DNA from: Argopecten irradians
Taxonomy: Eukaryota; Mollusca; Bivalvia; Pectinida; Pectinidae
DNA: 64,000 bases
Assembly: GCF_041381155.1 (NCBI RefSeq)
Contig: NC_091140.1
Coordinates: 21,790,864 to 21,854,863, forward strand
Reading direction: 5' to 3'
Made by a program: the position numbers and the translations under genes. The notes under the pieces were generated by a model. That model was not told where the DNA came from. It saw only the letters and a list, made by a program, of their open reading frames with translations, and made no database searches. Of the stretch, positions 36,913-64,000 are shown piece after piece; position 1 is the stretch's first letter, and every line of letters begins with the position of its first letter.

Positions 36913-39900
36913 GAGTACATGTGCAGGTATGTGTGACTGAGAAAAATAATATATGATTGGATGCAATATCAAGCTTCTAAGGTTTTGTTTAATCATAAGC
37001 AAATTCCTATTTTCAAACATGACTTTTGAGTATCATGTTCTTGATTACTGCTGCCATGAGAAGCCCCTGGTTGTCTTACTTTCATCGGACATTATTCCGA
37101 AACCTGTGGCCTCTCATCTCTATAGAGCAACCATTCAAGTTGCTGAATCCTCTCTTAAATTTGTTGTAGAGAATACCAGATAACATAAATACCCTCTGTA
37201 GGCAATTAGTTTAGGCAGGAATACAAGTCCCATGGTGCATTTCACGCCAAAAATCATATCTATAACAATTGTATCTATTTTCAAATATGATGCTTCGGTT
37301 AGATAAGAGAATGTTCATATCAAGTAAACAGAATACGAAAGTAAATTTAGAACATGTTGAAGTTATTTTTCCTATTAACCAGGCAGTTCAAAATCAGAGT
37401 TAGATGTTTTAGCAAAGATGTGGAAATTATCGTTTTGAGATGTATATTATATTTATTTTTATGTCTTTGACCACTGATTTGGTCAATTAAAGTCTATGAA
37501 AAATAGTCGAATCCTCGATATACGGCATGATTGACCATTTCAGTGTAACCAAAATGTTTCATGTGGTAGAAAATCAGACACTCAGCTATGGGTTTATAGG
37601 AACTCAGCAGTTAGTATTTTAGTAATGACGTAATGTTTCAACAGTGTTTTATCGTGATAAACATATAAAATTATTGGAATACTGACTAGCGAATGATGTC
37701 ACAAGAACTTTCTATCTCTGATAAACTATATTACAGACATATAACAGAAAAAAAGAAACAAAAACAAGACGAGATAGTTTTTTCAACTATTTTAATATAA
37801 ATATGCATCATATTTTGAATAACAGTTTTGAACAATGAAGAAGTATACCTCAGCTGGACATTTAAAGTGTGTCTATTGGGTTTAATAAATATGATATCAG
37901 ATCATTAATTTATTCATACCTTTCAACTTTTTTAAATTCTCTTTTCCCTTTTGCTATCAATTTCAGTGATACATATTTAGCCAATATTTCCACATGTGCA
38001 TGAATTATATCATTTCCAAGAAAACTTGAATCACCAAATTTACAGAAGATCTGTAATTATGTTGTACATTTAGAAGAATGACTTTATAAGGCAAAGCTTC
38101 AACTTTCCTTTCAAACTTTCTCCTTACATTTTTTACTGAAAAAGCGTGCTTTTGCAGTATTGCTACGGCCCGGATGACCCACTAATTTAAATGCGATTGA
38201 CCTCTCATTTGCATGCGATTTTTTCTTTTTTCCTCTTTCTAGAACAAATATGCTGCCATAGTGCAGTTTAATTGTAATAAACAACTTCTATGGCATTTCA
38301 TTAAATAGAATAGTTTCAAACATGTCTACAAAAACTATAGCATGAACGTCTATAATTGAAAAATAGTGAGGATAATTTGCATCAGTGGTAGCGATCGGTG
38401 GCCTAATTCTCGCCAGTCGTTTGCATATATTTATGTAAACATCCGGTTTGGGTAACACTAAATAAAGGAATTGTCAGGATTTTGGTATGTAAGTATCTAA
38501 TTGTACTTTGATGTATACATTCATAATCTATTATATAATGACAATTTTTTTAATTCATCGTGACGTAAGAAAGATACAAAAGTTGTTTGTTTTTACATGT
38601 ATTATATTGATAGTCATTTTGGAGAACAGGTACGTTCGTATATTGTGATCATGTCATTACGATGGCCCACTGAATTTAACCAAGTCTCACTCAAACAGAC
38701 GCTTGCTAACTACGTACGCATCAAGCGTCTGGGTGATCTATGCAGAAGCTAACAAACACGATAAATTCTGAGTTACGCTGGCTCCTTATCATTTCGCACG
38801 GATTGTCAACTAACGCATCCTTTCATTAACGAGGGAATATTTAATACATGGATACAGATACAATATCGTGACACTCAGGAATAGTGTAAACGGCCGAATG
38901 TAAACAAAGACGTCATCAAGCAAAGCGGACCTGTGATGTACATATAACTTGCAAGTCAAGAGACATTTTCCATTTAATTATCAAGCGTAATAAATGCATT
39001 CTCATATCTGAAAAACACCGAAGAATATTTGAACACTGCATGTTGCAAGCCACCTTGCTAGTAAACCACGGAATTCTTTTCGTATTTGGAGACATAAGCA
39101 GTGAAAATCGTAAGTTTCATTTCGTTTTGCTTCTTTGCCTATCATGCCTATGGGTCGGTATATTATTATATGAACTATTTGACAGACATCGGCACATGAA
39201 GTGAACTTACAACATCATGAGTATGTGTGAATTCCTGCTAACATCCATATAATCGACGTTTTATTTTATTACAACGCAACGAACAAAATTTAATATCACT
39301 TTAAATTTGAAGTAGTTTGTTGTTATATTAGCAGTTGACAAGATTCATTTTTGGTATTATTTTCTAATGCGATGACATCAAATTTAATATTAATGCATGA
39401 GTCAATTCAATTTACCAGATTGTCAATATGTCTATAAACACCACAAATCATGTGTTTATTTGTAGGCAAAACAATGCATGATATAGATCCATAAAAAATA
39501 CGTACATATGTGTGTAATACACATGTGAATACAGAATTTCTTTAGATAAATAGAAGAATTGTAATGCTAGATTTATTTAAGACAATTAATATCTGGGATT
39601 TCGAAATTGGCGGTATGAACTTAAAACATCGATTAAACAGTCACTACATATAGTCCCGAGATCTCGTGCACAGCAAAATCCCGTCAAAGTCTCGGTTAAT
39701 ATAATTTCCGGAATATATAGCAACGAAGCGCACCGCAGCTTCGTTACATATAACTTCATGGATTCAGAGAATTTATAATAACACTTACCAAAATAAACAA
39801 TAACCTGTGCACTGTAATATATCATACATGGTAAATTTACACTTGCTCAATATTACCAGTATTTGGTTTAAAGTAAGTTTTGCTAACAGTAAAAAGCATT

Positions 39901-43329: not shown

Positions 43330-44632
43330 AACAAATAAAAGCTTACCTATTACACTAATCAATACAGCTACAAATAAAAGTTTACCTATTACACTAACCA
43401 ATACAGCTACAAATAAAAGTTTACCTATTACACTAACCAATACAGCTACAAATAAAAGTTTACCTATTACACTAATCAATACAGCTATAAATAAAAGTTT
43501 ACCTATTACACTAACCAATACAGCTACAAATAAAAGTTTACCTATTACACTAACCAATACAGCTACAAATAAAAGTTTACCTATTACACTAACCAATACA
43601 GCTACAAATAAAAGTTTACCTATTACAACTCAATACAACTACAAATAAAGTTTACCTATTACACTAACCAATACAGCTACAAATAAAAGTTTACCTATTA
43701 CACTAATCAATACAACTACAAATAAAAGTTTACCTATTACACTAACCAATACAGCTACAAATAAAATTTACCTATTACACTAACCAATACAGCTACAAAT
43801 AAAAGTTTACCTATTACACTAACCAATACAGCTACAAATAAAAGTTTACCTATTACACTAATCAATACAGCTACAAATAAAAGTTACCTATTACACTAAC
43901 CAATACAGCTACAAATAAAAGTTTACCTATTACACACCTATTAAAAGCTTACTATTACACTAACAATACAGCTACAAATAAAGTTACCTATTACACTAAC
44001 CAATACATAAATGCTTACCTATTACACTAATACAATACACTACAAATAAAAGTTACCTATTACACTACCAATACACTACAAATAAAAGTTTACACTACAA
44101 TTACACTACACCAATAAAGCTACACAAATATAAAGTTTACCTATTACACTAACCAATACAATACAAATAAAAGCTTACCTATTACACTAACAATACAGCT
44201 ACAAATAAAAGTTACCTATTACACTACAATACAGCTACAAATAAAAGTTTACCTATTCACATAACAAAAGCTACAATAAAATTTCACCTATTACACTAAC
44301 CAATACAGCTACAAATAAAAGTTTACCTATTACACTAACCAATACAGCTACAAATAAAAGATTACCTATTTCACTAATCAATACAGCTACAAATAAAAGT
44401 TTACCTATTAACAACCAATTACACTAACCAATACAGCTACAAATAAAAGTTTACCTATTACACTAATCAATACAGCTACAAATAAAAGTTTACCTATTAC
44501 ACTAACCAATACAGCTACAAATAAAAGTTTACCTATTACACTAACCAATACAGCTACAAATAAAAGTTTACCTATTACACTAACCAATACAGCTACAAAT
44601 AAAAGCTTACCTATTGCACTAACCAATACAGC
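43330..44632. repeat. 39-bp minisatellite, about 33 copies
   Basis: The unit ACAAATAAAAGTTTACCTAT plus TACACTAACCAATACAGCT. Copies are near identical at 43330-43640 and 44430-44632, while the middle (43920-44290) is scrambled by small deletions. 39 is a multiple of three, so open frames on both strands are artefacts. It starts 75 bases upstream of the ATG at 43254, so it may lie in the promoter or a 5' intron of that gene. Confidence 0.96.
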
Positions 44633-44686
44633 TGCAATGATATATTTGTTTTGATAAAATTTGTATAACTTTATCCTGAGTTATTC

Positions 44687-44888: not shown

Positions 44889-45600
44889 ATTAGGGCTTTT
44901 CACCATGTGGTGAAAAGACCTATTGTTTTTGTTCTGTTTTTTATTATTATTCTTCTACACTTTTTTTTGTGTCCAAAAGATCTTCAAAATGGTAAGAGGT
45001 ATGCCAATGGCCTTATTGTTATATTGTATGGCATGAGTTGAAGGGGTGACCGCAACATTTTTAAGTAGGTCAAAAATCCAAGATGGCCGCCATGACGTCA
45101 TACCTAAAAAGTTTAAAACAGCCATAACTCAAAAACCGTTTAAGATACAGCAAATATTTTTGATGTTTTATGTAGATCGTATAAAAGACTAACTTTTATT
45201 CAATTACAGCAATTAGGTCAGAGGTCAAACAAAAAAGTTCGCTATGGGGTCAAAGTTCGCGAATTTTTATTTTTTTTTGATTATCCGAAATTTCTTTTTA
45301 CATATCGATGCAGAATGTCATTCTGATGAATTTGGTGTCTTTTATTTGTTGGTAGCACTTCCGGTTAATGCTGTATGCCATTTTGAAAAACAATCCTTTG
45401 ATCTTTGCTAAATTCCCGCCAAAATGTTTAACATTATATATTGTCGAACTGAATGACTAATATAGTCTGTAATTGCTATAGAAAAGACCCCTCTAATGTT
45501 CTCTAACGTTTGATATGATTTTTATCTTCATCAAAAAAACGATATGACATAAAGACAATGACTACTGCTAGGTTTATTATCGGGATTCATTAGTAGTAAG
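44889..45600. repeat. Dispersed element headed by a hairpin
   Basis: Begins with the perfect hairpin CTTTTCACCATGTGGTGAAAAG (22 bases: core TTTTCACCATGTGGTGAAAA), then CTATTGTTTTTGTTCTG and a TTATTATTATTCTTCT run. Further on it has AAGATGGCCGCCATGACGTC and CATAACTCAAAAACCG phrases. On the minus strand the hairpin is followed by CCCTAA|T, which resembles a Helitron 3' end (hairpin then CTRR before T). No Rep/helicase is seen. Right boundary uncertain. Confidence 0.5.
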
Positions 45601-45818
45601 TAAGACTCATGATGGATTTAGACTTTGCTTGATATTGAATATGAACTTGGATAGCACAAAAACTTTCTATGTATGAATGAAATCAAAATTGCAAATGGAA
45701 TGCTGTATGACTTTAATGATTATAAAGTTCCTTAAAAATGAAGATTGGAACCAAGGTCATTTAAGGTCGTGCCAGGTTTAGGAGGTAGAGTCAGTAACTT
45801 CACTTAGGTTTTAAACCT

Positions 45819-45878
45819 TGAGGTGGAGGGCTAAAACCTCTGAGGTGGAGGGCTAAAACCTCTGAGATGGAGGGCTGT
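45819..45878. repeat. 22-bp tandem repeat, about three copies
   Basis: TGAGGTGGAGGGCTAAAACC plus TC, repeated at 45819, 45841 and 45863; the last copy is partial and diverged. Confidence 0.85.
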
Positions 45879-46129
45879 GGTAATACGGTATGTCTTAACC
45901 ACTTGGCAATTGCCATCCTCTTATAGAAGCCAAAGCATTCCATAAATCTTCATATAAATCATTGAATGGAGAAAGCTAAGATACCCGTATAATCTGTGTT
46001 AAATGTATACCACATATATAAACCCTGACATCTCTCACCTAGCCTCCATCACATTTGTCAACCTTTAATTTGTATATCCCTATCTTAGTGTGAGAGCCCG
46101 CTGCCGATCTAGATCCCCCCCGCTTCCTA

Positions 46130-47300
46130 CGCCCCTGTATTTGTCAATAACATCATTAAGAATTTGAAGAAATTTTTCATATATGTCATTAACATCATTT
46201 GAATGGCCAATTAGAGTATCTCAGTCTATTGATTGTAATTCGTTATTAATGAAATCCCAGTTGGCACTTTCAAATTGATAAAAAGTTTTTTTGTAAGATT
46301 TTTCACGCAGTGTTTTGAAAACAAGATTTAAAAGAATAGTACAATGGTCACTACAAGTTGGAGGTAGTACCTCAGTGTTACTAACAATGTTAGGATTGTT
46401 TGTAAAAAAGACATCAATACTTTTAGCAGATGTGTCAGTTATGCATGTTGGTGTTTGGATTAGGCTGTCTAGTTGGTATTTTGTTAAAATAGTGTGTACA
46501 TGTGAAGTGTTGGGGAGTCTCATCATGTCCTGATTGATGTCACCAGTAATGATTACATTAGTGTTCAAGTCAATCAAGTTTTCTATAAGATCATCAAAAT
46601 GTTGCCAATAGTTAACTCTGGAGTTAGGTGGACGATAGATGCAACACAAAAGATTTTTTTTATTAGAGGTTTGCACTTCTATAACTAAATTTTCAATATT
46701 GGGGTTTTCCAGATCAGTTCGTCTGGTAGATATTAAGTTTTCTTTGGTAAAAATCAGTATACCACCTCCATTATCTTTTTCTCTATCTCGTCTGAACATA
46801 ACTGGGTGTGAATTTAGTGCCAAGCTATCATCAGTTATAGTGTTGTTTAAGTGTGTTTCAGTTAAGCAGACTATATCATATTCCGAAAATTCAGTTTCAA
46901 TAATATCTGATTTGTTTCTAAATGATCTCACATTAGAAGGAATAACTGACAAGTTAGATAGGTAATGTCTCTCAGGGGGTTGACCAGGATTGGGATGAAC
47001 ATCACCACTTAGAAGTATTAATAAAGTTGACAAATAGAAAATTAAAAGAAAAAGTATTTTATAATGTATACATATGACATTTATGAAACCGTTTGGGCTT
47101 AGTAGAAAAGTGTAGTCTATTGGCCCTGGATTAGGATGGATGTCACCAGATAGCTCCAATAAGAAAATACTCTGATGGGCAAACAAAACATTTTTGATTT
47201 GCATAGCAATAATTTGAATTATTAACATGTATAGGGTAAACAACAAATAAGCACTTCCACACACACATTCATACCAAAAGTAGAGATTAATATACATTTT
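46130..47300 (-). mobile_element. LINE 5' half: 2A-like peptides and APE endonuclease
   Basis: An open frame of 358 codons (47297-46221, minus). Hydrophobic N-terminal segments (residues 15-50 and 72-96) are each followed by a 2A-like motif: SGDIHPNPGP at 50-59 and SGDVHPNPGQ at 97-106. Then comes an APE endonuclease: IPSNVRSFRNK, CLTETHL, GGGILIF, CIYRPPN, IITGDINQD, and the SDH box CSDHCTILL near residue 330. Beyond a stop at 46221 the frame continues with SNDVNDIYEKFLQIL before ending near 46130 against a GC-rich unrelated repeat, so RT is absent. 2A-like signals at LINE N-termini are known in marine invertebrates; here Glu is replaced by His. Probably a CR1-like clade (inference). Confidence 0.87.
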
Positions 47301-47489
47301 AATAGAATATTACTGCTAACTTTAGTAGGTAGCAGTTCAATTAATATAAGAATTACTCTGAAAGAAGAGTATTTATGTAACATAGACAAGTTGTTATTTA
47401 GTTGCGACTTCACAAAGGTAATTAATTAAGTAATATTTGGTCTAAATATAGATCTGTGGTTACATATAAGATAATATATATACAAACAG

Positions 47490-47737
47490 CAGTTTGGATA
47501 CAGTCAAAGGGGGACAATAAAATAAATAAAATAGAGTAGCTAGAATAGTATGTACATTGTAGCTTGTTAACAGCAACAACGGATTTGAATACAATCAAAG
47601 GGAGACAACCAGTAAATATAGTATAGCTTGTAATTGGCAATAATTGGTTTGGATACAGTCAGAGGGAGACAACCAATAAATAAAATAGAGTAGCTAGAGT
47701 AGTTTGTAGCCTACATTGTAATTAGCAACAACACATT
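47490..47737 (-). repeat. Three tandem monomers upstream of the LINE frame
   Basis: The phrase TTTGGATACAGTCAAAGGGGGACAA recurs (core GATACAGTCAAAGGGGGACA) at 47492, 47583 and 47649, each followed by ATAAATAAAATAGAGTAGCTAG or a shortened form and TAGCAACAAC. It lies 190-440 bp upstream of the LINE start codon in its 5' UTR position, like promoter monomers of some LINEs. Confidence 0.7.
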
Positions 47738-48004
47738 TGTCCTGTTAATTATCTAGTGATAAGTATTTAGGTAAAAATTATGAGCAGAAAACACTAAAAT
47801 ACAATATGTAAAAGCCAAGTCTTGCTATTTTTTTTAAATACTCAAATTATTTGATCTATTGATATAATATAGGCATTATTGCTAACTTATTAGTGGCTAT
47901 TTATATCACTATACAGCCATAAAAAGGAGAGATATTATAACATAGTACAAGAATAGCTAATACAAGGTCAACTCATAAACTCTGAACGAGATAGTTTTAA
48001 CTAG

Positions 48005-48222
48005 TCCGCTAAACCTGCCTATATTATTAGTTTTTTTTTAATTTTTTTTTTGCCTAATATATAGTCAGCTCGCGGTACCTCTTAAAAATGTGAAATCGTA
48101 GGCCAGATTTGGCTACGCTACGCTACGTCAGCGGCATATTTCTAATATATATATATTTGCAAAAAAAAAAAAAAAAAAAAAAAAAAATTAAAACGCCTAA
48201 TAATATAGGCAGGTTTAGCGGA
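48005..48222. mobile_element. MITE with 26-bp inverted repeats and poly(A/T) arms
   Basis: TCCGCTAAACCTGCCTATAT(TATTAG) on the left faces CTAATAATATAGGCAGGTTTAGCGGA on the right (20-base core TATAGGCAGGTTTAGCGGA). Subterminal T-runs and A-runs (up to 28 A) also pair. About 218 bp, no coding capacity. Confidence 0.87.
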
Positions 48223-48730
48223 TCATGTACACGTCTGTTCTGTAGCTAAAACCGGCAAGGTATACATTATAATTGGAAATGGTGTAACAATAAATTAACT
48301 GATGTGAGCGAATATAATCAGTATAATGCATAAGATCAAAATTAAATTCAGGGATAACTCGTAGAATTACAAATAACGTTTCGTATTTCTTCACGGCTAT
48401 GTGTAATATGTATTTTAATGCGTTCACGTATCGATATAGATATTATGCTCATCATAAGCGACCGTGCTTAGTCACATGACTTCAAAGACTCGATCTGACC
48501 GTTGGTCGGAATATTCCCGCTTAATCCATTGTTCATGAGAAGTCCGGCGAACTGACAACACAATTTTGAGCTTCCGAATTGCAACACTTTATAAAGGCAA
48601 AAGGCAAGTCCGTTCTGAACATTTCATTTATATGATATATAATATGATATACAATACAGTATTGTTTAGATTTAAAGACTTATTAACAAAGTCTTACATT
48701 CCCGTATGTGAAGTAATACTGGCATAAATC

Positions 48731-48765
48731 ACAGGGACCTGGCAAGAATTTTATAACCAACGGCA
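48731..48765 (+). repeat. Left arm of the GGGACCTGGCA inverted repeat
   Basis: CACAGGGACCTGGCAAGAA then TTTTATAACCAAC. Faces the inverted copy at 51078-51113 across 2.35 kb that contain a decayed LINE and MITEs. Third copy at 8949. Confidence 0.65.
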
Positions 48766-48997
48766 ACGGTATTTATCTCTCCTCTCAAAAAACCTAAAAC
48801 CACATGTACGTTTTTTGTATTGTTTTTCTCTTTGTTTGATATAATATGTGAGCCACCGAACATTGAACATACTCATGAACATATCTCAGTTTCTACATGC
48901 AATTTCTACATGTGCACACATCACAATCATTTGAGTTATCGCACAAAATTACAATTACATGTATTTTTTTTATGAAAACCATGAACTTCTCAATATT

Positions 48998-49547
48998 TTA
49001 AGGTTTAAGACCCTGTTTAAACTAGTGATGTTTTTGTATGCCTATACATTGTATATCACTGTATTCACTTCTTAGGTGTATTTGCATAACATACATATAC
49101 ATGTACCTTAGTTACTAAACATCCTCGATATTCCAGGGGTTCCGATCACTTACGATCTCTATACGAGCAGAGATAGTAAGTGATCGGAACCCCTGGAGTA
49201 TCGAGGATGGTTACTAAAAAGTGTCAATGCATCCGTACTAACTTTACTAGATATAATACTGTTGACTCTGTATAGGCTGATGTGTTGTTTGTAAATTTTG
49301 GCAAATTATGCAAAAAATGTAATTTTTCAGTTTTGCATGTCCACAGGGTTCAGTACATATTTCTGTCACCAAACAACCATGTCATTATGTTTACTAGTGT
49401 TTATAGCATGTAGTAGGAACGCTGGTTTGACCGGATTCGACTTTATAAAGGCATACACATATACATTGTTTGGAAAATTTGACATTATTTAGGTTTTCTT
49501 CAACTACAGCTTAGACATGATATATTAAACAGGGTCTTAAACCTTAA
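48998..49547. mobile_element. TTAA-flanked MITE, family D, with nested palindrome
   Basis: TTAA then GGTTTAAGACCCTGTTTAA on the left and TTAAACAGGGTCTTAAACC then TTAA on the right: perfect 19-bp inverted repeats with TTAA target duplications, total 542 bp without the flanks. This is the piggyBac-type signature. No transposase; the frame 49298-49492 is accidental. It is inserted in or beside the decayed LINE that continues at 49560. Confidence 0.88.
49112..49218. repeat. Long near-perfect hairpin inside MITE D
   Basis: Arms of about 43 bp: TACTAAACATCCTCGATA..CCAGGGGTTCCGATCACTTA and its complement TAAGTGATCGGAACCCCTGG..TATCGAGGATGGTTACTAA, with about 20 bases between. Much better preserved than its host MITE, so a younger foldback insertion. 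Confidence 0.85.
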
Positions 49548-49559
49548 TTGCCCATTCAA

Positions 49560-51055
49560 GATCTCATTTTACACTCTTCTATTTCAGGTTATACACGGTT
49601 ATTTCAGTAATACAAACTTTATTCTAGTCCTACATATTTTACTATTAATTTGTATGGATATACATGTAAAACCTGGTCAAGGCACAAACACTGATATATT
49701 GACTATATTCCACATAAATATTCGCAGCTTAAGAAATAAAATAACTCACCTCCAAAACATTGCAGGTGAATTCCACGTATAGTATGCATCACCGAATCTC
49801 ATTTAGACAGCACTATTTCTGATGACGATATACAGACCGTGTACATTCCTATGGTGGAGGTGTTGTCGTCTATATATTTTATTATATTTATGCCAAACGT
49901 TGTCTTGACTTAGAATTTCCATCAGGTGAAGTCGTATGGGTAGAATATTCTTTAATAATTCCTCATACCTCCTTTACACAGTTACAGACCCAATGATAGT
50001 ATAAATCCTCTTTGGGAACAATTTGAAAACTCCACTGAAACCGCACTTGATGAAAATCGGCATGTAATAATAGTTGAAGACTTGAACATTTGACTCTCAG
50101 AAACCCGTCACATATACTTAGTGATAGTATACGTCCATATTCCTTTTCCAATGTCATACACTAACCTGCACGTGTAGGTCAAACGCGCGCTTTGTCACTA
50201 GATCCCGTACGCGTGCTGGTCAGCGATGCGTGCGAAATAGAGCTTGCCGGTGTTATCGATGTATGTAGATCACGATATATTTCTGATCATGATATCGATG
50301 CCACTATGATTGAAATGTACCAAGGATTTATAAGTGAGATATACGTCCTTGAATGTACTAATAATTGTTTACGTTCGATCTGGTGACCATGGTATAAAAA
50401 TGCTAATTACCGATCTTATACAAAATATGCCAGGTCCCTATGGTTGTTATTTAGAGGCGCTCAATCATGTAATGATATGAGTAAATTTTTTTTTCTGAAA
50501 AAAAAAAATACTCGGACCATGCCCATGTTTGTATTCCCACTAAAAATATTATTATAAGACCTAATGATAAGCCGTGTTTACCTATGAATTACGACATGAA
50601 ATAAGAGTGAGAAATAGGTTACATAAAAAAAAACTTAAACGTAGCTATCCATTGCTAAATTTAGATAAATTTGAAAAAGCAATAATTTTAAAACGCAGAA
50701 CCAGGGAATTATTTTTCGCTAATGTAAATGGACTATTAGACAATTTTGCCAAAAACAACCAAAAAGATTTCTGGAAACTTCTGCGTAATTTAATAAAGGG
50801 TTGTGATAGAGTTTCTAATATCCCCATTAAGATATCATGTTAATAATACTATTATGGTAGATAATGAACGAAAAGCTAATGTTTTAAACGATTACTTTAT
50901 ATCTATATCAACCTTATGTGATACTGGTGTTCCCTTACTATATGTTAATACCAGAACACAAAGTCGTTTGGGCGATGTTTTTTTTACGCATACTGATATT
51001 ATCGATATTCTAAGTTCCTAGACATAGGCAAAGCTGTAGGTTTTGATAAAATATT
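49560..51055 (+). mobile_element. Decayed LINE (endonuclease and RT entry)
   Basis: Plus-strand pieces in order: a worn 2A-like stretch (LLLICMDIHVKPGQ, 49640-49680), endonuclease start FHINIRSLRNKI (49712), WGGGVV-like residues near 49850, then the EN-RT linker frame 50574-50843 with NGLLDNFAKNNQKDFWKLLRNLIKG (quoted core NQKDFWKLLRNLI) and the RT entry GKAVGFDKILL near 51020. Numerous stops; RT proper missing. Related in plan to the LINE at 46130-47300 but on the other strand. Confidence 0.75.
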
Positions 51056-51057
51056 AC

Positions 51058-51113
51058 TGTAATAAATATATATATATGTATACTGTTGGTTAAAACATTT
51101 CGTGCCAGGTCCC
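51058..51113 (-). repeat. Right arm of the GGGACCTGGCA inverted repeat
   Basis: Minus strand: CCACAGGGACCTGGCACGAA then TGTTTTAACCAACAG and a TATACATATATATA run, nearly identical to 8949-8995. It truncates the LINE at its left. Confidence 0.7.
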
Positions 51114-51170
51114 TGTGGACATGGTAAATAGACTTATCTGATTAAAATACTTATAACCACTCCGTTCAAA

Positions 51171-51463
51171 AGAGGATCTGACAACATCCCATAAGAGGTC
51201 ATGTTCGCATGACCTTTATACCACCTGTACATCAAATCAAAAGCATTTTCTACTCCTAGCTACATCAATTGAAAACGCCATTTCGTCCCAGTATAAATAT
51301 ACACTTAGCTTTGTTGTGCTCTTTGGGCGAGATGACTATGTACATTAAATAATTCTGACTGGTTTTTTTAAAACTGTTTCGTCCCAAAACAATTCTGGCA
51401 GCAGCAATATTTTTCAAAAGGTCACCAGAACGTGACCCCTAATGGGATGTTGTCAGATCCTCT
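51171..51463. mobile_element. MITE with AGAGGATCTGACAACATCCC ends
   Basis: AGAGGATCTGACAACATCCC on the left and GGGATGTTGTCAGATCCTCT on the right form perfect 20-bp inverted repeats, followed inward by imperfect pairing (AAGAGGTCA..GACCTTT with AAAAGGTCACC..GACCCC). About 293 bp, non-coding. Confidence 0.87.
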
Positions 51464-52255
51464 GATCAAACGTGCATAGTGATAATAAGGATCTGTATCT
51501 TAATCAGATTGGGACTAGTCTGGAGTAGCTGGGGCTAAAAAGGCTAACTTTGGTCATATTTACTGAGCAATCGGAACTCCTCGGGCATTCTCTAAAGAAT
51601 ACAAATAAAAAAAGAATATTTTCTCGTTTACGGAAAGTGATGAAGGTTCCCGATTGATTTACTGAGTTAAAGGCCCTCTGGGCCTCTTGTACTTATTATA
51701 TTTGGTGATTTAATATCCTGGTTGAGGATTATTTTCAGAAATTACCAGAGATTATATAGTACATGTAGTTTGTGTAATACATAAAGGGAGACAATCTGTT
51801 CCCACTCTATAACATTAGTCTAGGGGAGACAATCCATTCCTTTATAACATTACCTCCCTTTAATAGATAATGCTTTAATTTCTTTTTTCCTTTTCCCAAT
51901 TATCATTTCATCTTTACAATATATATAAACATATAATTACATATACTCCTATACATACACTTTTACTCACTTTCACACCCCCATTCAAATTTCTGATTTA
52001 TATTGGTCAATCAATCTATATCCATCTTTCCATACTTTTGTTAGCCTTCTTTTTTCTTATAAATAATCATAATCTTTATTGTATATTTTCAGAATATATT
52101 CCACACTCATTTGCTTTCATTCTCTTACTCATTCATCATGGTTTAAGATAAAAACATAAGAAACATTTCGTTATGATTTTTAGTTATAATTCTTTAGTAT
52201 ATTGTCACTGTAACTTTTTGTAATATAATTTTTGTGAATTTAGAATTAAGTGTTT
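51464..52255. other. Non-coding interval
   Basis: Contains short direct phrases GGGAGACAATC(T/C)(G/A)TTCC at about 51785 and 51822, and pyrimidine-rich sequence at 51860-52200. No gene recognised. Confidence 0.4.
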
Positions 52256-52257
52256 TT

Positions 52258-53065
52258 ATACCCCGCCCAACGAAGTTGGCGGGGTATATACAAATGGGTT
52301 CCGTCCGTCCGTCCGTACGAATGGTTTCCGGAGCATAACTCTAAAACCAGTAGAGATATTTCCACGAAACTTCATACACACATTGGTCTTATGGTCTAGT
52401 AGTGCCTTTTGCTATTTTTAGGTTTTCATTTTTTGCATTTTTTCCGTAACCATGGAAGCATTGCTGAAAATATCATATTTTTGTACCAGGTTCGTTCCGG
52501 AGCATAACTTTAAAACCAGAAGAGATATTTCCACGAAACTTCATACACACATTGGTCTTAATGTCAAGTAGTGCCCTTTGCTATTTTAAGGTTTTCACTT
52601 TTTGCACTTTTTTTCTGTAACCATGGAAACATTGCTGAAAATGGCAGATTTTTGTGTAAGAATCGTTTCCGGAGCACAACTCTAAAACCAGCAGAGATAT
52701 TTCCATGAAACTTCATAGACACATTGTTCTTATGGTCTAGTAGTGCCTTTTGCTATTTTTAGGTTTTCATTTTTTTGCACTTTTTCCGTAACCATGGAAA
52801 CATTGCTGAAAATATCATTTTTGTACCAGGTTCGTTTCCGCAGCATAACTGGAAAACCGGTTGAGATATATGCACGGAACTCCATAGGCACATTAGTCTT
52901 ATGGTCTAGTAGTGCCTTTTGCTATTTTAAGGTTGTCACTTTTTGTACTTTTTCCTGTAACCATGGAAACATTGCTGAAAATGGCAGATTTTTGTGAAAG
53001 AATCGTTTCCGGAGCACAACTCTAAAACCAGCAGAGATTTTTTCATGAAACGTCATAGACACACT
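52258..53065 (+). repeat. Hairpin-headed tandem repeat of about 170 bp
   Basis: Starts with the hairpin CCCCGCCCAACGAAGTTGGC(GGGG), then GTCCGTCCGTCCGT, followed by four to five units of 168-173 bp, each GTTTCCGGAGCATAACTCTA ... AACCATGGAAACATTGCTGAA. Units start near 52325, 52493, 52665, 52838 and 53007, the last truncated. Not coding. Confidence 0.85.
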
Positions 53066-53495
53066 TTATGTAGGACTTCTAATTTTGTATTATGCTTTAC
53101 TTTTAATTTAATATACATGCAGTAAAACTCAGATATATCAAACTCAATTACTATGAACATTCACTTAATTCCTATGTAACTCGTCGCTGTTTAAAACAAA
53201 TCAAAAATCGCACTGTTAGCTGCTGAACTTTGTTAAAGCTAAGATCAATTCTGGTATTTTTCAAAGAAGCAAATATTTTTAAAGTCGGTTTCACTTTGTT
53301 AAAAAAATATAAATATGTTTGTATATATTCTTCAATTGCAGTTGGGTTTTAAAATACTTTCCCTATACTCTGACTAGCATATAAAATTAATGCATTAATT
53401 GATTTAGCTCTCCATTGGCGGGGGATCTGAATGACTATGTCCTTGTTTATGATGGCATCTAGTTTATCTTTATACAAATATCTTGCTATCTATAC
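53066..53495. other. Non-coding interval
   Basis: AT-rich flank between two repeat domains. No exon, RNA gene or repeat recognised. Confidence 0.35.
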
Positions 53496-53613
53496 AGGTG
53501 GTCCTGAGATGTATTGTCTCCCCTTCATTGGTCAGCCAATCAAAAACGTTTTGCAAACTGATCGTCGCCGAGCTGTGCAGGAGATCAAAGGGATCCGAAC
53601 TATTTACCGTTAA
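53493..53613 (+). CDS. Candidate exon upstream of the large array
   Basis: After a usable acceptor (CTATCTATACAG) the frame reads GGPEMYCLPFIGQPIKNVLQ then TDRRRAVQEIKGIRTIYR and stops at 53613. Composition looks coding. No good donor follows, so it would be a last exon or a fragment. Whether it belonged to the gene that supplied the exon-like part of the array at 53761 is a guess. Confidence 0.35.
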
Positions 53614-54246
53614 AAGTTTTGCTAAATAATAAGCGGTATCGCTGTAATTGAAATTTATTGATCATTTTACACTTGAACAGCAAGCTGAAAACAGCTAACC
53701 GGGTGTCTCTCAATCCATTTGATATTTATTATAATTTAATTATATTAATTAACTATATGTTTCAGTTTTCCCAGATCCATTTGACGACAGGAAAGGCAAC
53801 ATGGTAAGCATCCTTGTATGAAGACGGATGGTTCACCTCCATGAATGGTATACTTGAGTCGTGAAAAACTACCAAGTGCATTTAGGTAAGTATACTCTCA
53901 CTGTGACAACACCCGGTATATCTGCCAGGTTAATGCATTTTCATCAATTTGTGCGCAAATGTGCCATGCGACATTGCGATAATGTGCCATGCGACAGTGT
54001 GTTTGTCACATGGCTCATTGTTGTATTGTCGTCATGTCGCCCATGCGACAGTGCGACAAAGCCTAAATCAATCACCATAGAAATCAGAAATATCTAGTTT
54101 TCGACTTATCAATTGGAAGGGAAAGTCGACCATATTGATTGACGTTTCGAAATAAGCAATTGATATATATATTGCCATTACAATAATTATGTATTTTCTT
54201 CTCTCGCAATGGTAACCACGATGTTTCAGTTTTCCGAGGCCCTACG

Positions 54247-54572
54247 ACGACAGTAAGGGCAACATGGTAAGCATCTTGGATGACGACGGAGGGTTCACCT
54301 CCATGAATGGTATACCCGAGACCCGAGTGACGACAGGAAGGGCAACATGGTAAGCATCATTGGATGACGACGGAGGGTTCACCTCCATGAATGGTATACC
54401 CGAGACCCGAAGTAACGACAGGAAGGGCAACATGGTAAGCATCATTGGATGACGACGGAGGGTTCACCTCCATGAATGGTATACCCGAGACCCTAGTGAC
54501 GACAGGAAGGGCAACATGGTAATCATTAGATGACGACGGAGGGTTCACCTCCATGAATGGTATACTGGAGTC
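54247..54572 (+). repeat. 84-bp subrepeats in the array, four copies
   Basis: The block GACGACAGGAAGGGCAACAT ... GAATGGTATACCCGAGACCC repeats four times at 84-85 bp spacing. The same internal amplification recurs as two to three copies at about 54945, 56010, 57150, 58190, 59250, 60310, 61365 and 62465. Confidence 0.88.
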
Positions 54573-55733
54573 GTGAAAAACTACCAAGTGTTTTTAGGTA
54601 AGTATACTCTTACTGTGACAACACCCGGTATAAAATGTGCCATGCGACAGTGCGATAATGTGCCATGCGACATTATGTTTGTCGCATGGCTCATTGTTCC
54701 AATGTCGCATTGTCACACATGCGACATTGCGACAAAGCCTAAATCAATCACCATAGAAATCAGAAATATCTAACTTTCTACTTATCAAATAGAAGGGGAA
54801 AGTCGGCCATGTTGATTGACGTGTTAAAATAAGCACTTCATACATATATTGCTATTACAGTAATGATAGATTTTCTTCTCTCGCAAATGGTAACCACGAA
54901 ACGTGGCCGTTGTTGGAGACTATATGTTTCAGTTTTCCGAGACCCGAGTGACGACAGGAAAGGGCAACATGGTAAACATCCTTGGATGACGATGGATTGT
55001 TCAATTCCATGAATGGTATACTGGAGACCCGAGTGACGACAGGAAGGGCAACATGGTAAGCATCCTTGGATGACGACGGATGGTTCACCTCCATGAATGG
55101 TATGCTGAGAGTCTTGAAAAACTACCAAGTGCATTTAGGTAAGTATACTCTCACTGTGACAACACCCGGTATATCAGCCAGGTTAATGCATTTTCATCAA
55201 TTTGTGCGCAAATGTGCCATGCGACATTGCGATAATGTACCATGCGACAGTGTGTTTGTCGCATGGCTCATTGTTGTCAATGTCGTCATTGTCGCCCATG
55301 CGACAGTGCGACAAAGCCTAAATCAATCACCATAGAAATCAGAAATATCTGATTTTCGACTTATCAACTGCAAGGGAAAGTCAGCCATATTGAATGACGT
55401 TTCGAAATAAGCACTTCAAATATATATATTGCCATTACAGTAATGATATATTTTTTTCTTTCGCAAATGGTAACCACGAAACGTGGCCCTTGTTGGAGAC
55501 TATATCTTTCAGTTTTCCGAGATCCGAGTGACGACAGGAAGGGCAACATGGTAAGCATCCTTGGATGACGACGGATGGTTCAACTCCATGAATGGTATAC
55601 TGAGAGTCTTGAAAAACTACCAAGTGCATTTAGGTAAGTATACTCTCACTGTGACAATACCCGGTATATCTGCCAGGTTAATATATTTTCATCAATTTGT
55701 ACGCAAATGTGCCATGCGACAGTGCGATAATGT

Positions 55734-55762
55734 GCCATGCGACAGTGTGTTTGTCGCATGGC
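55734..55762 (+). repeat. Representative hairpin of the array unit
   Basis: GCCATGCGAC, nine loop bases, GTCGCATGGC; flanking AATG/CATT extends the stem across one T-T mismatch. The hairpin is kept in most central units, while several carry deletions that remove it (for example near 59600 and 61740). Confidence 0.8.
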
Positions 55763-58700
55763 TCATTGTTACAATGTCGCATTGTCACCCATGCGACAGT
55801 GCGACAAAGCAAAAATCAATCGCCATAGATTTCAGAAATATCTAACTTTCTACTTATCAAATAGAAAGGAAAGTCGGCCATGTTGATTGACGTGTTAAAA
55901 TAAGCACTTCATATTTATATTACCATTACAATAATTCTATATTTTCGTCTCTCGCAAATGGTAACCACGAAACGTGGCTGTTGTTAGAGACTATGTCTTT
56001 CAGTTTTCCGACAACCGATGACGACGGTAAGGGCAACATGGTAAGCATCCTTGGATAACGACGGATGGTTCACCTCCATGAATGGTATACTGGATATCCG
56101 AATGACGACAGGAAGGGCAACATGGTAAGCATCCTTGAGTGACGACGGATAGTTCACCGCCATGAATGGTATATCCGAGACCCGAGTGACGACAGGAAGG
56201 GCAACATGGTAAGCATCCTTGGATGACGACGGATGGTTCACCTCCATGAATGGTATACTGAGAGTCTTGAAAAACTGCCAAGTGCATTTAGGTAAGTATA
56301 CTCTTACTGTGACAATACCCGATGTATCTGCCAGGTTAATGTATTTTCATCAATTTGTACGCAAATGTGCCATGCGACATTCGATAATGTGCCATGCGAC
56401 AGTGTGTTTGTCGCATGGCTCATTGTTTCAAATGTCGCATTGCGACAAAGCCTAAATCAATCACCAAAGAAATCAGAAATATCTGATTTTCGACTTATCA
56501 AACTGCAAGGGAAAGTCAGCCATGTTGAATGACGTTTAAAATAAGCACTTCAATATATATATTGCCATTACAGTAATCATATATTTTTTTCTTTCGCAAA
56601 TGGTAACCACGAAACGTGGCCCTTGTTGGAGACTATATCTTTCAGTTTTCCGAGATCCGAGTGGCGACAGGAAGGGCAACACGGTAAGCATCCTTGGATG
56701 ACGACGGATGCTTCACCTCCATGAATGGTATACTGAGAGTCTTGAAAAACTACCAAGTGCATTTAGGTAAGTATACTCTCACTGTGACAACACCCGGTAT
56801 ATCTGCCAGGTTAATGTATTTTCGTCAATTTGTACGCAAATGTGCCATGCGACAGTGCGATAATGTGCCATGCGGTAGTGTGTTTGTCGCATGGCTCATT
56901 GTTACAATGTCGCATTGTCGCCCATGCGACATTGCGACAAAGCCTAAATCAATCACTAAAGAAATCAGAAATATCTAATTTTCGACTTATCAAGTGCAAG
57001 GGAAAGTCAGCCATATTGAATGACGTGTTAAAATAAGCACTTCATATATATATTGCCATTACAGTAATGATATATTTTCTTCTCTCGCAAATGGTAACCA
57101 CGAAACGTGGCCGTTGTTGGAGAATATATGTTTCAGTTTTCCGAGACCCGAGTGACGACAGGAAGGGCAACATGGTAAGCATCCTTGGATGACGATGGAT
57201 TGTTCAATTCCATGAATGGTATACTGGAGACCCGAGTGACGACAGGAAGGGCAACATGGTAAGCATCATTGGATGACGACGGATGGTTCACCTCCATGAA
57301 TGGTATACTGAGAGTCTTGAAAAACTACCAAGTGCATTTAGGTAAGTATACTCTCACTGTGACAACACCCGGTATATCTGCCAGGTTAATGCATTTTCAT
57401 CAATTTGTACGCAAATGTGCCATGCGACAGTGCGATAATGTGCCATGTGACAGTGTGTTTGTCGCATGGATCAAATGTGCAATGCGACAGTGCGACAAAG
57501 CCTAAATCAATCACCATAGAAATCAGAAATATCTAACTTTCGACTTATCAAATAGAAGGGAAAGTCGGCCATGTTGATTGACGTTTTAAAATAAGCACTT
57601 CATATATATATTGCCATTACAATAATTATATATTTTCTTCTCACGCAAATGGTAACCACGAAACGTGGCCGTTGTTGGAGACTATATGTTTCAGTTTTCC
57701 GAGACCCGAGTGACGACAGGAAGGGCAACACGGTAAGCATCCTTGGATGACGACGGATGGTTCACCTCCATGAATGGTATACTGAGAGTCTTGAAAAACT
57801 ACCAAGTGCATTTAGGTAAGTATACTCTCACTGTGACAACACCCGGTATATCTGCCAGGTTAATGTATTTTCATCAATTTGTACGCAAATGTGCCATGCA
57901 TGCGATAATGTGCCATGCGACAGTGTGTTTGTCGCATGGCTCATTGTTCCAATGTCGCATTGTCGCCCATGCGACAGTGCGACAAAGCCTAAATCAATCA
58001 CCATAGAAATCAGAAATATCTAATTTTCGACTTATCAAATAGAAGGGAAAGTCGGCCATGTTGATTGACGTGTTAAAATAAGCACTTCATATATATATTG
58101 CCATTACAATAATTATATATTTTCTTCTCTCGCAAATGGTAACCACGAAACGTGGCCGTTGTTGGAGACTATATGTTTCAGTTTTCCGAGACCCGAGTGA
58201 CGACAGGAAGGGCAACATGGTAAACATCCTTGGATGACGATGGATTGTTCAATTCCATGAATGGTATACTGGAGACCCGAGTGACGACAGGAAGGGCAAC
58301 ATGGTAAGCATCCTTGGATGACGACGGATGGTTCACCTCCATGAATGGTATACTGAGAGTCTTGAAAAACTACCAAGTGCATTTAGGTAAGTATACTCTC
58401 ACTGTGACAACACCCGGTATATCTGCCAGGTTAATGTATTTTCTTCAATTTGTACGCAAATGTGCCATGCGACATTCCGATAATGTGCCATGCGACAGTG
58501 TGTGTATTGTTCCAATATCGCATTGTCGCCAATGCGACAGTGCGACAAAGCCTAAATCAATCACCAAAGAAATCAGAAATATCTAATTTTCGACTTATCA
58601 ACTGCAAGGGAAAGTCAGCCATATTGATTGACGTTTCGAAATAAGCACTTCAAATATATATTGCCATTACACTAATTATATATTTTCTTCTCTCGCAAAT

Positions 58701-61700
58701 GGTAACCACGAAACGTGGCCCTTGTTGGAGACTATATCTTTCAGTTTTCCGAGACCCGAGTGACGACAGGAAGGGCAACATGGTAAGCATCCTTGGATGA
58801 CGACGGATGGTTCACCTCCATGAATGGTATACTGAGAGTCTTGAAAAACTACCAAGTGCATTTAGGTAAGTATACTCTCACTGTGACAACACCCGGTATA
58901 TCTGCCAGGTTAATGCATTTTCATCAATTTGTACGCAAATGTGCCATGCGACAGTGTGATAATGTGCCATGCGACATTGTGTTTGTCGCATGGCTCATTG
59001 TTACAATGTCGCATTGTCACCCATGCGACAGTGCGACAAAGCAAAATTCAATCACCATAGATTTCAGAAATATCTAAGTTTCGACTTATCAAATGAAAGG
59101 AAAGTCGGCCATGTTGATTGACGTGTTAAGATAAACACTTCATATTTATATTACCATTACAATAATTCTATATTTTCGTCTCTCGCAAATGGTAACCACG
59201 AAACGTGGCTGTTGTTAGAGACTATGTCTTTCAGTTTTCCGACAACCGATGACGACGGTAAGGGCAACATGGTAAGCATCCTTGGATAACGACGGATGGG
59301 TCACCTCCATGAATGGTATACTGGATACCCGAATGACGACAGGAAGGGCAACATGGTAAGCATCCTTGAGTGACGACGGATAGTTCACCGCTATGAATGG
59401 TATATCCGAGACCCGAGTGACGACAGGAAGGGCAACATGGTAAGCATCCTTGGATGACGACGGATGGTTCACCTCCATGAATGGTATACTGAGAGTCTTG
59501 AAAAACTGCCAAGTGCATTTAGGTAAGTATACTCTTACTGTGACAATACCCGATGTATCTACCAGGTTAATGCATTTTCATCAATTTGTGCGCAAATGTG
59601 CCATGCGACAGTGCGACAAAGCCTAAATCAATCACCATAGAAATCAGAAATATCTAAAGTTCTTCTTATCAAATAGAAGGGAAAGTCGGCCATGTTGATT
59701 GACGTATTAAAATAAGCACTTCATATATATATTGCCATTACAATAATCATAATTTTCTTCTCATGCAAATGGTAACCACGAAACGTGGCCGTTGTTGGAG
59801 ACTATATGTTTCGGTTTTCCGAGACCCTAGTGACGACAGGAAGGGCAACACGGTAAGCATCCTTGGATGACGACGGATGCTTCACCTCCATAAATGGTAT
59901 ACTGAGAGTCTTGAATAACTACCAAGTGCATTTAGTTTAGAATACTCTCACTGTGACAACACCCGGTATAACTGCCAGGTTAATGTATTTTCGTCAATTT
60001 GTACGCAAATGTGCCATGCGACAGTGCGATAATGTGCCATGCGACAGTGTGTTTGTCGCAACATTCATTTTTCTAATGTCGCATTATCGCCCATGCGACA
60101 GTGCGACAAAGCGTAAATCAATCACCTTAGAAATCAGAAATATCTAATTTTCGACTTATCAACTGCAAGGGAAAGTCAGCCATATTGAATGACGTTTCGA
60201 AATAAGCACTTCAAATATATATTGCCATTACAGTACTGATATATTTTCTTCTCTCGCAAATGGTAACCACGAAAAGTGGCCCTTGTTGGAGACTATATGT
60301 TTCAGTTTTCCGAGACCCGAGTGACGACAGCAAGGGCAACATGGTAAAAATCCTTGGATGACGATGAATTGTTCAATTCCATGAATGGTATACTGGAGAC
60401 CCGAGTGACGACAGGAAGGGCAACTTGGTAAGCAACATTGGATGGCGACGGATGGTTCACCTGCAGGAACGGTATACTTGAGTCGTGAAAAACTACCAAG
60501 TGCATTTAGGTAAGTATACTCTCACTGTGACAACAGCCGGTATATCTGCCAGGTTAATGCATTTTCTTCAATTTGTACACAGATGTGCCATGCGATATTC
60601 CGACAATGTGCCATGTGACAGTGTGTTTATCGCATGGCTCATTTTTCCAATGCGACAATGCGACAGTGCGACAAAGCCTAAATCAATCACCAAAGAAATC
60701 AGAAATATCTAATTTCCGACTTATCAACTGCAAGGGAAAGTCAGCCATATTGATTGACGTTTCGAAATAAGCACTTCATATATATATTGCCATTACAATA
60801 ATTATATATTTTCTTCTCTCGCAAATGGTAACCACGAAACGTGGCCCTTGTTGGAGACTATATGTTTCAGTTTTCCGAGACCCGAGTGACGACAGGAAGG
60901 GCAACATGGTAAGCATCCTTGGATGACGACGGATGGTTCACCTCCATGAATGGTATACTGAGAGTCTTGAAAAACTACCAAGTGCATTTAGGTAAGTATA
61001 CTCTCACTGTGACAACACCCGTTACATCTGCCCGGTTAATGCATTTTCATCAATTTGTACGCAAATGTGCCATGCGACAGTGTGATAATGTGCCATGCGA
61101 CATTGTGTTTGTCGCATGGCTCATTGTTACAATGTCGCATTGTCACCCATGCGACAGTGCGACAAAGCAAAAATCAATCACCATAGATTTCAGAAATATC
61201 TAAGTTTCGACTTATCAAATGGAAGGAAAGTCGGCCATGTTGATTGACGTGTTAAGATAAGCACTTCATATATATATTACCATTACAATAATTCTATATT
61301 TTCTTCTCTCGCAAATGGTAACCACGAAACGTGGCTGTTGTTGGAGACTATATCTTTCAGTTTTCCGAGACCCGAGTGACGACAGGAAGGGCAACATGGT
61401 AAGCATCCTTGGATGACGACGGATGGTTCACCTCCATGAATGGTATACTGGAGACCCGAATGACGACAGGAAGGGCAACATGGTAAGCATCCTTGAGTGA
61501 CGACGGATAGTTCACCGCTATGAATGGTATATCCGAGACCCGAGTGACGACAGGAAGGGCAACATGGTAAGCATCCTTGGATGACGACGGATGGTTCACC
61601 TCCATGAATGGTATACTGAGAGTCTTGAAAAACTGCCAAGTGCATTTAGGTAAGTATACTCTTACTGTGACAATACCCGATGTATCTACCAGGTTAATGC

Positions 61701-64000
61701 ATTTTCATCAATTTGTGCGCAAATGTGCCATGCGACAGTGCGACAAAGCCTAAATCAATCACCATAGAAATCAGAAATATCTAAAGTTCTTCTTATCAAA
61801 TAGAAGGGAAAGTCGGCCATGTTGATTGACGTGTTAAAATAAGCACTTCATATATATATTGCCATTACAATAATTATATATTTTCTTCTCACGCAAATGG
61901 TAACCACGAAACGTGGCCGTTGTTGGAGACTATATGTTTCAGTTTTCCGAGACCCGAGTGACGACAGGAAGGGCAACACGGTAAGCATCCTTGGATGACG
62001 ACGGATGCTTCACCTCCATAAATGGTATACTGAGAGTCTTGAATAACTACCAAGTGCATTTAGGTAAGTATACTCTCACTGTGACAACACCCGGTATAAC
62101 TGCCAGGTTATGTTTTTTCGTCAATTTGTACGCAAATGTGCCATGCGACATGCGATAATGTGCCATGCGACAGTGCGATAATGTGCCATGCGACAGTGTG
62201 TTTGTCGCAACATTCATTTTTCTAATGTCGCATTATCGCCCATGCGACAGTGCGACAAAGCGTAAATCAATCACCATAGAAATCAGAAATATCTAATTTT
62301 CGACTTATCAACTGCAAGGGAAAGTCAGCCATATTGATTGACGTTTCGAAATAAGCACTTCAAATATATATTGCCATTACAATAATGATATATTTTTCTC
62401 TCTCGCAAATGGTAACCACGAAACGTGGCCCTTGTTGGAGACTATATCTTTCAGTTTTCCGAGAACCGAGTGACGACAGGAAGGGCAACATGGTAAAAAT
62501 CCTTGGATGACGACGGATTGTTCAATTCCATGAATGGTATACTGGAGACCCGAGTGACGACAGGAAGGGCAACATGGTAAGCATCCTTGGATGACGACGG
62601 ATGGTTCACCTCCATGAATGGTATACTGAGAGTCTTGAAAAACTACCAAGTGCATTTAGGTAAGTATACTCTCACTGTGACAATACCCGTTATATATGCC
62701 AGGTTAATGTAATTTTATCAATTTGTACGCAAATGTGCCATGCGACAGTGTGATAATGTGCCATGCGACAGTGCGACAAAGCCTTAATCAATCTCCATAG
62801 AAATTAGAAATATCTAAAGTTCTTCTTATCAAATAGAAGGGAAGGTCGGCCATGTTGATTGACGTGTTAAAATAAGCACTTCATATATATATTGCCTTTA
62901 CAATAATTATATATTTTCTTCTCACGCAAATGGTAACCACGAAACATGGCCCTTGTTGGAGACTATATGTTTCAGTTTTCCGAGACCCGAGTGACGACAG
63001 GAAGGGCAACATGGTAAGCATCCTTGGATGACGACGGATGGTTCTCCTTCATGAATGGTAAAAAAGAGTCGTGAAAAACTACCAACTGCATATAGGTAAG
63101 TATACTTTAACTTACATAATTGTAAAGAAATTATTCTAAATAATGAATGTTTATCATTTTTTGCAACTATACGTCATTCGAGAACTCGACATGCGCCATG
63201 CGACAGTGTGTTTGTTGCATAGCGCATTGTCGTACTTGTCAAATGACATATTGTCGCACTATCGCATGGCATATTGGCGCACTGTTGCATGAACCATTGT
63301 CGTATTCATTGACGTTTCGAAATAAGCACGTGATATATACTGCTATCACGCTAATTATATACCTTTTTCTCTCGCAAATGGTAATCACGTACGGTGGCCG
63401 TTTTTAGAGACTATATGTTTCAGTTTTCTGAGACCCGAGTGACGACAGAGAGGGCAACATGGTAAGCATCCTTAGATGTCGACTCATTGTTAACCTCCAT
63501 GAATGGTAAACTGGGGTCATGAAAAACTACCAACCGCATTTAGGTAAGTATACTTTGATTTACGTATTTGTTAAGAAAGTATTCTAAATAATGAATTTTT
63601 ATCAATTTTATCGACTTTTCGCCATGCGATAACTCGACAATGCGCCATGTGACAATGTTTTTGTCGCATAGCGCATTGTCGGACTGTTGCATGGCATAAT
63701 GTCGCACTGTCGCATGGCGCATTGTAGTATTGATTGATGTCTCGAAATAAGCACATCATACATACTGCTATCACACTAATTATATACTGCTTTCTCTTGC
63801 GAATGGTAACCACAAGAGGTGGCCGTACCATATGTTTTAGTTTTCCGAGACCCGAGTGACGACAGGAAAGGCAACATGGTAAGCATCCTTGGATGACGAC
63901 AGATGGTTCACCTCCATGAATGGTAAACTGAAATCGTCACGAACTACAAACTGCATTTAGGTAAGTATAAAAACGTGACAAACATATATCCAGAATATCT

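Follow-up and report, generated by a model that had tools for sequence, protein, structure and literature searches.

A tandem array with splice-like signals as probable cargo of a large Helentron-type transposon in Argopecten irradians

Introduction

Non-autonomous rolling-circle transposons of the Helentron type (HINEs) are characterized by subterminal inverted repeats, a 3' palindrome, and insertion at a TT target without duplication, as far as the account in PMC4067079 goes, and the oyster Cg_HINEs are described in PMC7492417 as carrying tandem repeats. In this study, we analyzed a stretch of 64,000 nucleotides from Argopecten irradians (NC_091140.1, positions 21,790,864 to 21,854,863 of the forward strand; referred to as the window), in which a tandem array of exon-like units bearing splice-like signals runs from 53,760 to the right-hand edge. 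Positions without a contig label are given in window coordinates. The array is most probably the tandem-repeat cargo of a large HINE, a reading to which we assign a probability of about 0.88. Copies have common ends, the array is dispersed, one full copy has an exact empty site, no Helitron-type replication domain lies near the window copy, and array lengths vary between copies.

The element resembles the Cg_HINE of the Pacific oyster, so far as PMC7492417 details it, in being non-autonomous, in having a 5' subterminal repeat with an adjacent complement and a microsatellite and a 3' subterminal repeat with a palindrome, in its T-rich target without duplication, and in carrying satellite-like arrays as central repeats. 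In contrast, the oyster monomers are reported in that source to measure ~138 to 181 bp, with 3.6 per array on average and a maximum of 29.3, whereas the units here measure 372 to 703 bp and contain nested sub-repeats, the arrays span 9 to 18 kb, the elements span 31 to 35 kb, and pieces of long interspersed nuclear elements (LINEs) and other repeats form further cargo. The Helentrons and HINEs of mite, Culex, and Drosophila likewise combine subterminal inverted repeats, a 3' palindrome, and a TT target without duplication with tandem repeats in some copies and occurrence in clusters, on the description in PMC4067079. Unlike in that description, the element studied here ends in CTAG at its 3' side, as canonical Helitrons do, and an autonomous partner with the same ends was not identified in the comparison given below. 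Exon-like cargo is also found in rolling-circle elements of maize, where Helitrons have captured exons and give chimeric transcripts (PMC4528327); here, however, the exon-like piece is a tandem array known from DNA sequence alone, and no source gene was found.

Results and Discussion

Ends and insertion sites of the element

The 5' end, TTAGGGCTTTTCACC ATGT GGTGAAAAGACC, comprises a subterminal repeat and its adjacent complement and lies at 44,890 to 44,919 (+) in the window. The same start base was found in four copies (the window, L025, L026, and L027), whose flanks are unrelated; in L025 and L027 the first 50 to 60 bp of the element are repeated several times in a row. The 3' end, GTGAAAAGCCC GCC AAATTGTC TAT GACAATTT CTAG, was found in L029, L031, L032, and L033, with unrelated sequence beyond it. 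Exact matches to these ends are numerous in the genome (165 for the 5' 29-mer and 143 for the 3' 35-mer), while the reversed controls gave none. TT precedes all 23 isolated 5' ends (of 38 in total, 15 directly follow another 5' end and were not counted), A stands at position -3 in 21 of these 23, and T follows all 14 3' ends, two of which are a one-letter variant and some of which stand ahead of another HINE.

A full copy of 34,989 bp (~35.0 kb) occupies C5:13,958,335-13,993,323, inside a host tandem repeat. Two neighboring units of that repeat read GTTAATTTGTCATATTT, and the occupied unit reads GTTAA[TTAGGG...CTAG]TTTGTCATATTT; comparison of the two indicates that insertion involved neither target duplication nor loss. 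The cut can be read as lying between A and T or between T and T, and both are equally possible. T-T was considered as the single target and set aside, since the empty site leaves the other reading equally open. Both ends also enclose the array at C2:6,453,353-6,483,989 (30.6 kb) and at C12:9,935,558-9,967,657 (32.1 kb, from the coordinates).

Among 63 exact 5' ends taken from C1 to C6, 47 have an exact 3' end on the same strand within 70 kb, and 35 of these pairs, 1.2 to 6.7 kb apart, are short family members. In 10 of the 14 array clusters on C1 to C6, an exact 3' end on the same strand lies no more than 60 kb downstream (expected by chance at ~0.4% each), and six clusters have both ends. HINE 3' ends also occur stacked head to tail in steps of ~1.3 to 3.0 kb (C5:23585498-23601448 and C10:20844134-20850474), as rolling-circle concatemers would give.

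Genomic dispersal

The original prediction described an exon amplified into a 10-kb array. The unit also occurs far beyond this place, and the array is not the product of a purely local amplification: a genome-wide search with a 32-mer of the core returned 263 exact matches (reversed control, 0), the first 100 places listed clustering on C1 to C6. An exact 30-mer of unit 1 had six matches (control, 0), and a 133-bp query around unit 1 was 92 to 100% identical at all 40 places scored among 1146 first-look candidates. The flanks move with the array: positions 44,890 to 53,760 are 98 to 99% identical at C5:13.98, C5:23.6, C97, and C7:18.9 Mb, and positions 67,250 to 74,000 are matched over most of their length, at 92 to 99%, at more than 10 other places. 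In six copies, the right side of the array lies 9.4, 10.2, 10.3, 13.5, 15.2, and 17.6 kb from unit 1, from which it follows that the array changes in length. The array copy at C7:27.84-27.85 Mb (L012) looks braided, with two stretches interleaved and many small insertions, and is probably an artefact of the assembly consensus.

Classification of the element

Most features of the HINE plan are present. Subterminal inverted repeats of 11 to 15 bp occur at both ends (GGGCTTTTCAC at the 5' end and GTGAAAAGCCC at the 3' end), the complement stands beside the 5' repeat (CTTTTCACC ATGT GGTGAAAAG) and is followed by the microsatellite ATTATTATT, and a palindrome (AAATTGTC TAT GACAATTT) lies 4 nucleotides from the 3' end in other copies, though not in the window copy. 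The target is T-rich or TT and is not duplicated, on the basis of one exact empty site that is equally compatible with a cut between A and T. Finally, the element itself lacks a Rep/helicase: of 104 Helitron_like_N matches genome-wide, none falls on C7 near 21.8 Mb. These matches, some in frames of more than 3000 amino acids (up to 3146), represent potential partners.

It is improbable that the element is instead a canonical Helitron. The 3' hairpin followed by CTAG fits the canonical CTRR, and the junctions, which allow three readings, can be taken as insertion between A and T (A at -3 in 21/23 and T after CTAG in 14/14). In contrast, the 5' end is TT rather than the canonical TC, and the subterminal repeats at both ends, the 5' complement, and the microsatellite match the HINE plan as far as PMC4067079 and PMC7492417 set it out.

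Organization of the compound element

Directly after the 5' end, a short HINE truncated at its 3' side (44,920 to 45,546, +) contains a T-rich tract, an ATT microsatellite, and an interior like that of the right-hand HINE copies; its positions 44,946 to 45,542 match 77,352 to 77,955 at 95%. No 3' hairpin was found between -10,000 and 84,000, and a second HINE has its own 5' end at 72,620 to 72,635. From the missing 3' end of the left HINE and the further 5' end downstream, we infer capture by read-through. The short HINE may have lost its own 3' terminator, and rolling-circle transposition, having begun at the left 5' end, would then have read through ~27 kb of neighboring DNA (LINE pieces, other repeats, and the array) into the next HINE, stopping at the 3' hairpin of the latter and so producing a compound of 31 to 35 kb. 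This compound could subsequently have spread with proteins of Helitron or Helentron elements elsewhere in the genome.

Two other readings of this region were discarded. Position 46,115 had been considered as the left border, but it marks where architectures part, and the true end is at 44,890. Likewise, the sequence repeated at 44.9, 73.6, and 77.4 kb was considered as long terminal repeats, which was dropped given the hairpin end and the junctions.

Anatomy of the array

The window contains 20 unit starts, from 53,760 to 63,835, in agreement with the roughly 20 units originally predicted. The array extends ~3.3 kb beyond the window end, to ~67,287 (in L009), and has 28 starts in total, the last unit being partial. 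Each unit is between 372 and 703 bp long and opens with TTTCAG, or a near variant, and a 38-bp block; in unit 4 the core (55,507 to 55,641, +) consists of TTTCAG, the 38-bp block, GTAAGC, a second block, and AGGTAAGTAT. Part of the variation in unit length results from a nested sub-repeat of ~84 bp, which bears the 38-bp block with its GTAAGC and is present in one to four copies per unit, with 3.8 copies in unit 2 (54,246 to 54,565, +).

Unit alignment separates two classes with a common core and different spacers: class A, units 1 to 17 (53,760 to 62,969, +), and class B, units 18 to 27 (from 62,970, +; units 18 to 20 inside the window to 64,000, onward in L009 to 67,287). Mean divergence between the classes is 11% in the core and 34% elsewhere, compared with 5% and 8% within class A and 11% and 16% within class B. 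Per 25-column window, it amounts to 7% in the first 50 columns, 14 to 16% in the next 75, 14 to 73% in the spacer (where measurable), and 14 to 23% in the last 110. Column conservation is 0.94 in the core and 0.76 in the spacer. Edge units are mildly more diverged, as had been proposed, but the dominant break in the array is the class change at 62,970. Units 10 to 12 (from 58,739) pair as nearest neighbors with units 14 to 16 (from 60,865), at divergences of 2.1%, 1.7%, and 2.9%, which is a block duplication inside the array (58,739 to 62,448, +). The proposed tandem amplification is right, and it included block duplication; the units probably multiplied by unequal exchange together with such duplication.

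A further tandem repeat, of ~100 to 120 bp, with complementary GGTTATG and CATAACC in each unit, lies immediately to the right of the array (L009:3380-4340) and is kept in other copies.

Coding potential of the units

The first unit had been read as coding, with the later ones losing frame. Unit 1 can indeed be read as FPDPFDDRKGNM and most later blocks as FRDPSDDRKGNM, but unit 1 itself meets a stop (after FPDPFDDRKGNMVSILV), and 26 of the 27 blocks have stops in all three frames, the exception being unit 23, which is open in one. Block lengths in single-block units range from 106 to 121 nucleotides, and phase is not kept. The first 38 nucleotides are open in two different frames, in 24/27 and 23/27 units, respectively; the 12-codon open stretch therefore says little.

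Ten proteins (array-unit translations, the 38-amino-acid fragment described below, and other frames from cargo and flanks) were compared with Pfam, and a LINE endonuclease was the sole match above the curated cut-off. In the PDB, neither one unit translation nor a 191-amino-acid frame (L009:7556-8128) had a significant relative, and Rfam gave no match at the gathering score inside the window. A coding origin of the unit was rejected on the Pfam and PDB results for the translations tried. A source gene of the core was not found, but none of the searches was of a kind that could reveal one hidden behind the many array copies.

Conservation of the splice-like signals

The predicted conservation of TTTCAG, GTAAGC, and an AG-type signal was borne out by an alignment of 27 units, in which the signals are exact in 24 (TTTCAG), 25 (GTAAGC), and 24 (AGGTAAGTAT) units; inner sub-repeats were omitted, and the GTAAGC count therefore refers to the last sub-block. 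At the dinucleotide level, the acceptor AG is kept in 26/27, the first GT in 27/27, and the second GT in 26/27 window units, and across all sub-blocks of the array GT follows in 42 of 42, as GTAAGC in 36. The 22 signal columns are kept at 0.980, compared with 0.933 for the remaining core columns (p = 0.015 by circular shift, which carries no correction for signals picked by eye). In local alignments, which favor the ends of the core, where two of the three signals sit, mismatch to the consensus was 1.8% for signals versus 6.2% for other core positions in 28 window cores, and 3.4% versus 10.3% in 16 cores of a C11 array. In the C11 array, the essential donor G is altered in 3/16 first donors and 4/16 second donors.

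Recently separated copies gave a different picture. In four fetched copies (using pieces no shorter than 400 bp and no less than 93% identical), differences per site were 40/2115 (1.9%) in the core outside the signals, 4/295 (1.4%) in the signals, 55/2852 (1.9%) in the spacer, and 78/4433 outside the array. Slower recent change in the core was not seen (core and signals, 44/2410, versus spacer, 55/2852; Fisher p = 0.84), nor was there a gap between signals and core (Fisher p = 0.65), a comparison of low power with 295 signal positions. The picture varies by copy, with fewer core than spacer changes in L016 and more in L017 and L018. Current selection on the splice-like signals was not detected: recent change is equal in core, spacer, and signals, although only those 295 signal positions were compared, and the original prediction had itself named a lack of such selection among the findings that would refute it. 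The signals are either remains of an exon that preceded the amplification or a chance feature common by descent.

Amplification of an exon together with its flanking intron, as first proposed, finds mixed evidence: the three signals of each unit are better kept and the classes diverge by 11% in the core compared with 34% elsewhere, but 26/27 blocks have no open frame, the unit translations tried have no Pfam or PDB relative, and recent rates are equal. A more specific alternative holds that the element took up a genuine exon, splice sites included, and amplified it internally and that the units can still be spliced into transcripts. The better conservation of the signals relative to other core positions is in line with this, as is the divergence between classes, which is 7% over the first 50 columns, 14 to 16% over the following 75, and as high as 73% in the spacer, and exon capture by rolling-circle elements is known (PMC4528327). 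We nevertheless consider it unlikely, in view of the stops in all frames of 26/27 blocks, the lack of Pfam or PDB relatives for the unit translations tried, the altered donor G in 3 and 4 of the 16 C11 cores, and the lack of detected recent constraint; no source gene was found either, though no search could look behind the array copies. Nothing found shows units working as exons, and the exon reading is weak.

It is more doubtful still that a rolling-circle transposon took up a genuine exon complete with splice sites, multiplied it internally into dozens of copies, and spread the array genome-wide. If this were true, an element inserted in an intron would give the host gene many cassette exons, back-splicing sites, or recursive sites in which AG is followed by GTAAGTAT.

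Hairpin and octamer in the spacer

Two further motifs had been proposed as conserved across units, and neither is. The hairpin GCCATGCGAC/GTCGCATGGC is exact in only 6/27 units, and 14/27 have at most one mismatch per arm. It lies in the spacer, which is less conserved than the core (0.76 versus 0.94), while columns 226 to 250, which hold one hairpin arm, differ by just 14% between classes A and B. The octamer TGTCGCAT is missing from 9/27 units, and in one unit it is missing on both strands.

Copies that depart from the plan

Several observations weigh against the assignment of the array to a HINE. Six fetched copies differ from the window to the left of 46,115, so that more than one architecture exists. 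The 3' end of the window copy is not clean, homology to other copies stopping at ~74,183, and HINE ends are stacked at C7:21,893,888. Of the 14 array clusters, 4 lack a nearby exact 3' end and 8 a nearby exact 5' end. An autonomous partner with these ends was not identified; the comparison covered 16 Helitron_like_N places on C1 to C6, which lie at least 196 kb from the exact ends compared, and inexact ends were not searched. Finally, the core and the splice-like columns are ~threefold better preserved when older divergence is considered, for which we have no explanation. That the core stayed more alike than the spacer between the old classes could reflect a former function, gene conversion limited to the core, or rapid spacer turnover.

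The copies being often rearranged, stacked, or truncated and short HINEs with the same ends being common, the 30-kb pieces might have been copied by ordinary DNA repair or recombination, with HINE ends merely inserted into them, but such segmental duplication is very improbable, as four left and four right outer borders fall exactly on the ends of the transposon and the empty site of one copy is exact, with nothing lost or duplicated.

Other cargo and neighboring repeats

Cargo to the left of the array extends from 46,115 to 53,497. The longest frame found in the cargo, of 362 amino acids on the opposite strand (46,224 to 47,309, -), encodes the LINE endonuclease that matched Pfam above the curated cut-off. 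LINE-like remnants were recognized by eye at ~49.5 to 51 kb (+), and a 169-bp tandem repeat occupies 52,319 to 53,063. Adjacent to the array, a fragment with a 38-amino-acid frame and a stop (53,497 to 53,613, +) is itself a dispersed repeat, matching at all 150 places scored out of 191 candidates. Several of its copies form inverted pairs ~0.9 to 1.6 kb apart, such as C14:17,050,203(-)/17,051,127(+), which suggests a repeat family with inverted ends. The start of homology in L017 at 53,498, just past an AG, was considered as an exon border and rejected, as it is the edge of a stretch replaced in L017 and the fragment there is itself a repeat. The 191-amino-acid frame mentioned above also belongs to the cargo.

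Elsewhere in the window, translations of 155 to 4316 and 28195 to 30541 contain frames that by eye resemble a Ty3/gypsy-type polyprotein and a DDE-type transposase. A 57-bp minisatellite of ~40 copies, with long open stretches in several frames, lies at 34647 to 36913, and two more, with 52-bp and 39/117-bp units, lie at 14664 to 15755 and 43331 to 44637.

Implications

HINEs with tandem repeats are known from oyster (PMC7492417); the size and unit plan found here are unusual. In this family, a rolling-circle transposon takes an entire satellite-like array, built of units several hundred bases long, to many places, and the size of the compound (31 to 35 kb), its ends, and an empty site are all visible. 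The internal second HINE end beside the outer end fits read-through capture as a route to long cargo. As array length varies among copies whose long flanks are mostly 92 to 99% identical, the family could serve to date array turnover relative to the age of insertions.

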